Shown here in pieces: positions 48,557 through 51,326 of a stretch of DNA of 64,000 nt. The translations under genes were made by a program, and so were the position numbers. The stretch comes from Acidilobaceae archaeon (lineage in GTDB: Archaea > Thermoproteota > Thermoprotei_A > Sulfolobales > Acidilobaceae), in contig JALTZJ010000017.1 of the NCBI GenBank assembly GCA_027046245.1, forward strand, positions 1-64,000, given 5' to 3'. The notes below the pieces were generated by a model. That model did no database searches. It was not told where the DNA came from and was given only the letters and a program-made list of their open reading frames with translations. Within the stretch, counting starts at the first letter, position 1. Every line of letters begins with the position of its first letter.

Positions 48557-49093
48557 GTGAACATGGAAATGAATATATCGAGAATCGGAATATCACCAGT
48601 AATAGCCACAGTAATCATAGTAGCAGTTGCAATAGCAATCAGCATAGCAGTAGCAGGATGGATCATGGGTCTTTGGGGTGGCTTCGGCCAGACCGAGAGC
48701 CTCAAAATATTCCCGGACAGTTATGCTGCAGATGACGGAACAGATGGATACATTGTTCTACATCTTCAAAATGTTGGAGGCAGCCCTGCTCAAATTTACA
48801 AGATAGAAGTTGCGGGTTACGCCATTACAGATCAATCTGGCACGGTAATCTACGTCGATCCAACTGATCCAACAGCACCAATTAATCCAAACGATCTACC
48901 CACATTAACGCCTAATAACTCCCTTCCATATACAATAAATTCAGGCGAAGAGATATACATGGTAGTCAAAGTGATTGATCCCAATGGAAATCCTGTTAAT
49001 TTCGCTAGCGGTGTCGCATACACCGTTACAATCTACACGGCAGCAGGAAACGTTTACACAGCAACCGTATACGGAAAAGGTACAGTACAGTAA
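48557..49093 (+). CDS. Type IV pilin (archaellin-like N-terminus), copy 1
   Basis: 178 residues. A short positive leader ends RIG, a class III signal for the PibD peptidase, followed by ISPVIATVIIVAVAIAISI, the hydrophobic filament helix. The outer domain begins NVGGSPAQIYKIEVAG and ends VAYTVTIYTAAGNVYTATVY. Codons are A/T-ending, unlike copies 2 and 3, except for a 41-bp stretch (48665-48705) identical to them. An A/T-rich promoter lies upstream (TCTTTAATAC near 48508). Builds adhesive surface filaments. Confidence 0.9.
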   Translation: MNMEMNISRIGISPVIATVIIVAVAIAISIAVAGWIMGLWGGFGQTESLKIFPDSYAADDGTDGYIVLHLQNVGGSPAQIYKIEVAGYAITDQSGTVIYVDPTDPTAPINPNDLPTLTPNNSLPYTINSGEEIYMVVKVIDPNGNPVNFASGVAYTVTIYTAAGNVYTATVYGKGTVQ

Positions 49094-49366
49094 TCTACAA
49101 CTGGTGCAGATGGAGGCTGGTATCGAATAAACATATATTATTAACCTCAATAATTATTTATACTTATAAAAACTTAGGAAAACTCCGTCTTTTAATATAA
49201 AAATCCTGAGAAAAATAAGGCAAATTAGCTTAAATTGTTTACCTAAATATATCATAAGTATATAAAGAAGGAACTAGGTGACGATATTAGCAAAAACTAT
49301 TATAGTGCTCATAGATGCTAACTAGATGAATTAAAATAAAATAACATGCCTTACTTTTATGCCCTT
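49094..49366. other. A/T-rich intergenic region between convergent pilin genes
   Basis: 273 bp, strongly A/T-rich with several short A and T runs (for example TTTATACTTATAAAAA near 49158). These suit termination of both convergent pilin transcripts. No gene seen. Confidence 0.4.
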
Positions 49367-49435
49367 TTACTTGCCGTAGACTGTGGTGGTATAGACGTTA
49401 CCAGCCTCAGTATAGATCGTCACAGTATAGGCAAC
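49366..49435 (-). repeat. 70-bp identical block, pilin 3' ends
   Basis: Identical to 50561-50630, base for base, including third codon positions and the stop. It codes for the last pilin strand, VAYTVTIYTEAGNVYTTTVY, and the following residues. Confidence 0.9.
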
Positions 49436-49822
49436 ACCACTTGCCACATCAATTGTACCGGCTGCGTTAACTATTACTGCTAGTTTGGCGCCTGGATCCA
49501 CCGTTACTGTAGTCTGGCCCGTTAGATCAGCTGCGCCGTCTAGGTTAGTGTCTACATCGAATGTTGTAAATGACTCACCGGCGATCTCCATCTTGTAGAT
49601 TTGTGCTGGACTGCCTCCGACATTCTGCACTATAATGTAGAATGTATCTGTATTTGCATCTGCATAGCTGTCGGGGAAGGTCTTGAGGCTCTCGGTCTGG
49701 CCGAAGCCACCCCAAAGACCCATCAGCCAGCCAGCCACAGCAATGCTAATAGCTATAGCCACAGCAACGATAATCACAGTCGCAATCACAGGCGAAATAC
49801 CCTTCCTCTGTGCGATTATCAA
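49367..49822 (-). CDS. Type IV pilin, copy 2
   Basis: 151 residues from the TTG at 49822 (AGAGGT about 9 nt upstream); an upstream GTG would add an implausible leader. Processing site AQRKG before ISPVIATVIIVAVAIAISI. The outer domain has NVGGSPAQIYKMEIAG, a variable centre (FDVDTNLDGAADLTGQTTV) and the family end VAYTVTIYTEAGNVYTTTVY. The first 143 bp of the body (49665-49807) and last 70 bp (49366-49435) are identical in DNA to copy 3. Confidence 0.9.
   Translation of the reverse strand: MIIAQRKGISPVIATVIIVAVAIAISIAVAGWLMGLWGGFGQTESLKTFPDSYADANTDTFYIIVQNVGGSPAQIYKMEIAGESFTTFDVDTNLDGAADLTGQTTVTVDPGAKLAVIVNAAGTIDVASGVAYTVTIYTEAGNVYTTTVYGK
49665..49807 (-). repeat. 143-bp identical block, pilin 5' parts
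   Basis: Identical to 50860-51002. Codes for the pilin signal end, the hydrophobic helix and the segment to about SLKTFPDSY. A 41-bp part of it is also identical in copy 1 (48665-48705, opposite strand). Confidence 0.9.
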
Positions 49823-49966
49823 GGGCGATCTACCTCTCGTCACTACAAGTATTATAGAGAAATAGTGTATATATAGCTTGTTAGTGGTTTCGCTTGACCC
49901 ACTCACGAAAAACTGCTATGTTTTAGTTTTCCCTTGCTTCGTTAATTTACTATTTCCGGGGTAAAA

Positions 49967-50443
49967 GTGGGAGAAGGCGCCGCCCCCGAAAGAGAGATTG
50001 AAATTAAGGAAACAGTCTCGCGTTGGGTGGCATTTCACGCGTGGGGTCATGAAAACGTGCTAGCCACGCACCGTTCAACCTTCGAGATAACCCGTGATGA
50101 CTATCTTACTCCACGCGGCGACTGCATCATTGCTATACGGAGCCCTCTTGCGGCAGCTCACCTACCAGAATGGTTTAAGCGTGATGCCAGAAGCAAGGAA
50201 TCTATTATAATCGCGATTTTGTGCGCTGAAGGGATCTGCGATTCTGTAGTAGGCCGTGGCAGCGCTAATCTCACTTTCAGCGATGAACGTCGTATGGTGT
50301 TCAGGCGTAGCACCTTCGTAGCTGGCGACACAGTTATGATCCGAGCTAGTAAGGCTGCTAGGCATCTAAGGCGTGACCTAGTTGAGGCGCTGAAGAGAGG
50401 TGTGAGACTTACGGTCATGCTGTCTGCGATAAGGATAAGTTAA
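49967..50443 (+). CDS. DUF371 family protein
   Basis: 158 residues. FHAWGHENVLATHRSTFEITRD is the DUF371 signature (here in two parts: FHAWGHENVLATHR and STFEITRDDYLTPRGDCI). The rest is a conserved alpha/beta domain with LCAEGICDSVVGRGSANLTF. Function unknown; widespread in archaea. GTG start. It sits on the opposite strand between pilin copies 2 and 3, so the pilin genes flank rather than include it. Confidence 0.85.
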   Translation: MGEGAAPEREIEIKETVSRWVAFHAWGHENVLATHRSTFEITRDDYLTPRGDCIIAIRSPLAAAHLPEWFKRDARSKESIIIAILCAEGICDSVVGRGSANLTFSDERRMVFRRSTFVAGDTVMIRASKAARHLRRDLVEALKRGVRLTVMLSAIRIS

Positions 50444-50560
50444 AACCAGCCGTATAAAAATCTTAGCTAAACAGTAAACCGGTAAATAGTATTAATTAAA
50501 AGTAAAAATTAGGAAAGAAAATGATAGCGACTTGACCGTCTAGTTTGTTTAGTACGCGGC

Positions 50561-50630
50561 TTTACTTGCCGTAGACTGTGGTGGTATAGACGTTACCAGC
50601 CTCAGTATAGATCGTCACAGTATAGGCAAC
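50561..50630 (-). repeat. 70-bp identical block, partner of 49366-49435
   Basis: Second copy of the pilin 3'-end block; identical over 70 bp, and diverges immediately on both sides. Confidence 0.9.
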
Positions 50631-51011
50631 GCCTGCTGCAGCGTTAACACCCGTAGGTAGCGGCACTGTTATTGTGGCCTCTCCTCCTGGATCGAGCGTT
50701 ATTATACCGTTGGTCGTGTCTACCGTTACGCCTGTGCCAGTAGCGGTCGCTAAAGTTAGGTCTGCAGGTACACCGCTGATTTCTATCTTGTAGATCTGGG
50801 CTGGGCTTCCACCCACGTTCTGCACGTGCAGTACTAGGTTCCCGTTTGCTACGTCAACGTAGCTGTCGGGGAAGGTCTTGAGGCTCTCGGTCTGGCCGAA
50901 GCCACCCCAAAGACCCATCAGCCAGCCAGCCACAGCAATGCTAATAGCTATAGCCACAGCAACGATAATCACAGTCGCAATCACAGGCGAAATACCCTTC
51001 CTGGCTATCAT
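50562..51011 (-). CDS. Type IV pilin, copy 3
   Basis: 149 residues, ATG start, leader MIARKG followed by ISPVIATVIIVAVAIAISI. The centre differs completely from copy 2 (ADLTLATATGTGVTVDTTNG, TITVPLPTGVNAA) while both ends are identical at DNA level. Upstream, CTATAAG on the minus strand near 51080 would place the transcript start about 50 nt before the ATG. Confidence 0.92.
   Translation of the reverse strand: MIARKGISPVIATVIIVAVAIAISIAVAGWLMGLWGGFGQTESLKTFPDSYVDVANGNLVLHVQNVGGSPAQIYKIEISGVPADLTLATATGTGVTVDTTNGIITLDPGGEATITVPLPTGVNAAAGVAYTVTIYTEAGNVYTTTVYGK
50860..51002 (-). repeat. 143-bp identical block, partner of 49665-49807
   Basis: Second copy of the pilin 5' block; identical over 143 bp, flanked by unrelated sequence. 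Confidence 0.9.
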
Positions 51012-51326
51012 CTCTCATCCACCTCTTCTCTATTGTAGCCCTTACAGGCCCGATAGACGAATTATAGGTATGAGGGGTACTTATAGATTTCTCTAGCTCT
51101 GAAAATGGGTCTGCAACCCGTTTTTAATTAAGTAGATGAAGCCAAGGAACTCTGTTTAATTGGCTAACTAATGTGTATTGTCGCTACTAGTTTTTGCCGA
51201 AACACGCCTCGCCATTTTAAACTAGTTTAATTATATTAATAATGTCAATGTATAATCCGTGTTGGGCTGCATAGACTATCGCCCTGATTTTCTCCTTTTC
51301 CCGTACTATGTGGGGTGTGGCGTTAA
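51012..51326. other. A/T-rich divergent region between pilin 3 and the M28 peptidase
   Basis: 315 bp without a gene. Holds the pilin promoter (TATA-like near 51080, minus strand) and several A/T stretches (TTTTTAATTAAG near 51121, TTTAATTATATTAATAATG near 51226) that may serve the rightward peptidase gene. Confidence 0.4.

Follow-up and report, generated by a model that had tools for sequence, protein, structure and literature searches.

Pilin genes with shared ends and diverged centres in an Acidilobaceae archaeon: probable gene conversion between two old paralogues

Two archaeal type IV pilin genes (A and B) of an Acidilobaceae archaeon share end blocks that are practically identical even at silent sites, and the central parts of the same genes are diverged. 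The genes lie in the 64,000-nucleotide stretch of DNA that was analysed (here called the window). A preliminary description of this DNA had proposed recombination with borders at the conserved ends, and this is borne out by the silent-site identity and by the conflict between the trees of the ends and of the centres. Gene conversion of the end blocks between two old paralogues fits the data best, and we assign to it a probability of about 0.78.

The pilin genes and their shared blocks

All three pilins encoded at the locus carry the prepilin signature, i.e., G/ISPV (the slash marks the start of the mature pilin) at most two positions past a basic residue and followed by a hydrophobic helix. 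The class III signal, with K/R-G before this helix, is present in B (MIARKG/ISPVIATVII) and in A (Table 1). Pilin C, which is located beside A and was absent from the preliminary description, is 77-78% similar to them in its N-terminal DNA. The Pilin_N Pfam model matches at the right position with sub-threshold scores (16.8-21.9 bits; curated cut-off 25.2). This cut-off marks the limit of detection by the model and is not a biological hallmark of the family; the fold and the signal support membership in the archaeal type IV pilins. In the AlphaFold model of B, a helix of 29 residues precedes the strands, and the best Foldseek matches are the archaeal type IV pili 8fk7, 8q30, 6w8x, 6nav and 6w8u (E 4e-6, TM 0.5-0.6); the helix and Ig-like beta-sandwich fold of these pili is thus seen in B. 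In this model, the helix and the first strand make up the N-block, the C-block consists of the final two strands (E129-136, E141-148), and the centre is the remaining globular domain.

Both A and B possess a full open reading frame, a plausible TATA box and a Shine-Dalgarno-like motif (read by eye), and both are probably expressed. Contig C59 of this genome (G000:C59) carries genes for homologues of the assembly ATPase and of the platform protein (T2SSE/T2SSF; PilB/PilC-like), which are homologous to the corresponding pair of genome G034; two remoter pilin-like open reading frames are present on contigs C12 and C26. The DUF371 gene is also found near a pilin gene in the complete genomes G002 and G004 of the same genus, where the pilin beside it is non-orthologous to those of the window. 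Three genomes of the genus thus have DUF371 (49967-50443) near a pilin, although these pilins are not orthologous; the pilin site is conserved and its genes turn over.

Table 1. Features of the pilin locus (positions in the window)
Feature	Position	Strand	Remarks
Pilin C	48557..49093	+	third paralogue, with divergent ends
Pilin A	49367..49822	-	TTG start; class III signal MIIAQRKG/ISPV; archaeal T4P pilin; Pilin_N PF07790 E 3e-4, below curated cut-off; upstream GAGAGGT motif
C-block of A	49366..49438	-	last beta-hairpin and stop codon; 72/73 vs B
Centre of A	49439..49664	-	globular domain, 226 bp; nearest to pilins of G011
N-block of A	49665..49807	-	membrane/core helix and first strand; identical to N-block of B
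TATA-like element 5' of A	49866..49876	-	putative, by eye from sequence
DUF371 gene	49967..50443	+	between pilins A and B; Pfam PF04027 E 3e-48
Pilin B	50562..51011	-	ATG start; MIARKG/ISPV; archaeal T4P pilin; AF2 pLDDT 83, Foldseek archaeal T4P
C-block of B	50561..50633	-	72/73 vs A
Centre of B	50634..50859	-	globular domain, 226 bp; orthologous to G034 pilin (80% aa)
N-block of B	50860..51002	-	identical to N-block of A
TATA-like element 5' of B	51078..51088	-	putative, by eye from sequence

As described previously, the N-blocks (49665-49807 and 50860-51002) agree in 143 of 143 bp and the C-blocks (49366-49435 and 50561-50630) in 70 of 70 bp, or in 72 of 73 bp once extended; these numbers come from a 73-contig, 76%-complete draft genome, in which collapse of near-identical repeats by the assembler could turn a few differences into none. 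The identity begins at the mature pilin start (RKG/ISPV) and ends just past the stop codon, and the alignment register is constant at 1195 bp. When the codon columns of A and B were shuffled 20,000 times, the longest identical run was at most 69 bp (143 bp observed). The centres, which had been regarded as unrelated, are diverged homologues of the same length: about one third of their residues are equal, and a stretch of 55 bp (49576-49630 and 50771-50825, region QNVGGSPAQIYK) has 80% identity. No alignment is obtained between the flanks of A and those of B, which makes a recent whole-gene duplication unlikely.

Silent sites and conflicting trees

At four-fold sites, A and B are identical in 26 of 26 cases in the N-block and in 14 of 15 in the C-block (40/41 for the ends), and in 7-8 of 14-15 in the centre (ends vs centre, p 3.5e-5). 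Pilin C shares 45 of 48 N-block residues with A and B, yet just 7 of 24 four-fold sites with either of them. Similarly, the B orthologue of G034, which belongs to another genus and is 84% identical overall at the amino acid level, shares 7 of 25 four-fold sites in the N-block (p about 1e-8 for the contrast with the A-B pair). Pilin C and the G034 orthologue thus keep the protein but not the silent sites, so the identity of the A and B ends is not accounted for by constraint on the protein, on codon choice or on the DNA.

In the tree of the ends, A joins B, and the grouping of B with its G034 orthologue is rejected (AU p 0.0004). In the tree of the centres, B joins the G034 orthologue, and the grouping of A with B is rejected (AU p 0.018 for protein, 0.0018 for DNA). 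The paralogues are therefore closer at silent sites than the orthologues, and the trees conflict along the gene, as is characteristic of gene conversion or concerted evolution. The two possible directions of this conversion, from A to B and from B to A, are not separated by the trees (AU p 0.11-0.14 for the alternatives). The B centre is 80% identical to the G034 pilin in amino acids, with saturated silent sites. As this centre is conserved in another genus, the exposed domain of B has not been swapped recently here, and the recent change concerns the ends.

Related pilins in other genomes of the order

Recombination at pilin centres can be observed between sister species, in whose collinear DNA the N-block is as similar as the rest of the genome, unlike the centre. 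The G002 and G004 genomes are 84-89% identical in nucleotides over about 15 kb, and their alignment breaks at the pilin centre and C-terminus; for the pilin at this syntenic locus, the N-block has 94% nucleotide and the centre 32% amino acid identity. The same pattern is seen for G111 and G112, with the C-block retained. In the G105/G107 pair, four-fold identity is 0.85 in the flanking genes, 0.81 in the N-block, 11/27 in the centre and C-block (p 2e-7 vs flanks) and 58/117 (0.50) in the next gene (p 3e-17 vs flanks). The silent sites differ as well, so divergent DNA has replaced the original sequence here, and fast protein evolution alone is not the explanation. The left border of the replacement is the junction of N-block and globular domain (FYPDSY), the same place as in A and B.

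The gene directly 3' of the pilin in the G105/G107 pair (L163 2140-3345; L164 9745-10917) codes for a multi-pass membrane protein that matches no Pfam family, and its replacement accompanied that of the centre. Furthermore, the open reading frame of a MATE-like transporter is intact in G105 (L163 4684-5285) and split by an inverted segment in G107 (L164 7475-8326), which may be a real inversion or a misassembly. This inversion (L163:4684-5285) was rejected as a pilin event, since it affects the transporter and not the pilin.

Such replacements favour the proposal that the whole gene was copied and its exposed centre then replaced through recombination in both end blocks, giving surface variants; the centres were truly replaced in G105/G107 and in G002/G004, and the borders coincide with the arms. 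However, for A and B this sequence of events appears unlikely. Their flanks fail to align, contrary to a recent copy, the B centre is common to another genus, and neither a donor nor a silent cassette was found. Searches of the 76%-complete genome with the whole region and with each end block revealed no silent pilin cassettes, for which the preliminary description had proposed to look elsewhere in the genome, and no further copies of either end block; DNA matches other than A, B and C were at chance level. The swap of exposed domains between cassettes that had been suggested for this pair is hence not supported, given the orthology of the B centre and the lack of a silent copy in this draft.

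Related pilins were detected in 101 of 214 genomes of the order (E 1e-12), and the genomes surveyed were chosen for carrying several pilins, so that the counts below give no frequency of the pattern. The arrangement seen in A and B is also found in other genera. N-blocks that are almost identical within one genome and have diverged centres are present in G066 (143/144, centre 66% aa), G082 (139/144), G123 (110/111) and G011 (137/144), and C-blocks of this kind in G016 (68/69) and G087 (69/69). The three highest within-genome silent identities, the window pair among them, lie above the values of each of the 77 between-genome pairs whose N-blocks are conserved to the same degree. When the ends were tested against the centre, which is a stricter comparison, three of the 38 within-genome pairs passed the Bonferroni correction, namely the window pair and those of G066 and G011. 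Between-genome pairs had a weaker trend (33 of 227 at p<0.05), perhaps partly because of weak codon alignment in the centres, which is a feature of centres with low identity.

Several further arrangements were observed in these genomes. In G066 (L174, 7000-15100), as compared with G067 (L175), the segment between inverted pilin copies is inverted; exact inverted pilin repeats of 122 bp could have mediated this inversion, which would exchange pilin halves. The pilin inversion of Moraxella is a comparable case. A programmed inversion was rejected for A and B, which have the same orientation and between which a crossover would delete DUF371. In G082:C41 (L107, 1054-3618), four pilin genes are arranged in tandem on one strand, with more pilin-like open reading frames nearby, and G053:C1:924000-938000 (L056, 3946-4763) contains a pilin copy with a frameshift and stops beside intact pilins, possibly a degenerate copy. 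The last ~20 bases of G011:C76 (L038), inside a pilin C-block, appear to translate as CLLYTSPS, which we take to be a Nextera transposase adapter left untrimmed in the public assembly.

The recurrence of the pattern also bears on the possibility of an assembly artefact, by which bubble removal or repeat collapse would have made diverged end blocks identical. The genome is a 73-contig draft, a 143-bp repeat is near short-read length, and both G011 pilin contigs terminate inside or at the C-block. Nevertheless, we consider such an artefact improbable: collapse is unlikely to mask about 30 silent differences, the same pattern occurs with a few residual differences in G066, G082 and G011 and more weakly in the single-contig G095, and two pilin genes of identical sequence are frequent in the genomes of Sulfolobus islandicus (PMC7217056). 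That strong selection on DNA or protein holds the ends identical without recombination, as the very conserved N-block protein throughout the family might suggest, can practically be dismissed, being already contradicted by the silent-site comparison: C and the G034 orthologue of B retain the protein yet differ at about 70% of four-fold sites, and the median four-fold identity between genomes is 0.50.

Mechanism and biological meaning

According to the gene conversion explanation, A and B would be two old, separately promoted paralogues of a major archaeal type IV pilin. Homologous recombination would recently have copied the N-terminal and C-terminal blocks between them, with DUF371 kept in between, and the diverged centres, too dissimilar to pair, would have been left unchanged. 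Conversion is presumably the exact event behind the ends. Both pilins may feed one assembly machine (PilB/PilC-like, contig C59), for which the helical ends would have to be nearly identical, and the centres may be kept different by selection linked to surface binding or virus receptors. The same conserved arms would also permit replacement of the centre by foreign DNA, as between sister species. One process could then account for both situations: recombination would act where pilins are alike (ends) and halt where they are not (centres), homogenising the ends within a genome and making the centres exchangeable with imported DNA.

Comparable arrangements are known from other systems. Haloferax volcanii possesses several major adhesion pilins, PilA1-6, in which the H-domain at the N-terminus is almost fully conserved and the rest differs, and each of which can form pili (PMC4371748). 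However, this was described at the protein level and in another phylum, whereas the A and B ends are identical at silent sites and have the C-terminal hairpin in common as well. In S. islandicus, PilA1 and PilA2, which are needed for SSV and SIRV infection, are a crenarchaeal pilin pair located close together, often as two identical genes (PMC7217056); there, whole genes on opposite strands are alike, whereas A and B are identical at the ends only and lie on one strand. Neisseria pilE/pilS likewise has a pilin with a conserved N-terminus and recombination via conserved segments. In contrast to that system, no silent promoterless donors accompany A and B in the 76%-complete genome, both copies look expressible from their sequence, and programmed or high-frequency switching is unsupported. 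In bacterial flagellin (H antigens of E. coli and Salmonella), the conserved ends provide the homology for replacing the exposed hypervariable central region (PMC7018530), although the protein is unrelated, and the exchange takes place between strains, like that in our sister-species pairs rather than that between A and B. In UpsA of Sulfolobales, a poorly conserved pilin stretch sets partner specificity (PMC7064770); this is a short region of one UV-induced pilin, and the accessible part of the source reports no homogenisation of the ends. For gene conversion among archaeal pilins, no report was found in the open-access papers searched (most subscription papers lie outside this scope).

The modular view of these pilins is right: the ends are kept alike and the exposed centre varies. 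What the preliminary description called cassette-like variation stands as far as this modular pilin with a variable exposed centre is concerned; a programmed switching of cassettes lacks support. For A and B, antigenic or virus-receptor variation is plausible, because archaeal pili are known as virus receptors. Likewise, selection on the exposed domains is plausible, because pili serve as receptors for SSRV1 and PFV2 (PMC7347861), pilins are needed by SSV and SIRV, and the UpsA stretch determines partner specificity. No viral contigs carrying the pilin were found. Furthermore, Aeropyrum pernix possesses Ced pili for DNA import (PMC9905601).

As a tentative and rather speculative extension, hyperthermophilic Desulfurococcales might maintain a pool of globular pilin domains that recombine, in which identical end blocks serve as homology arms, the centres are passed between paralogues and also, through DNA import, from species to species, and pilus-binding viruses are the driver. 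If so, archaea would have their own equivalent of the variation known from flagellin and gonococcal pilin, one that works without silent cassettes. If the gene conversion explanation is right, archaeal pili would diversify as modules, with the assembly ends kept alike by recombination and the exposed domain diversifying or being exchanged. Considering the roles of pili as virus receptors (PMC7347861, PMC7217056) and in partner recognition (UpsA, PMC7064770), this would provide a concrete, testable route to host-range change in archaea.
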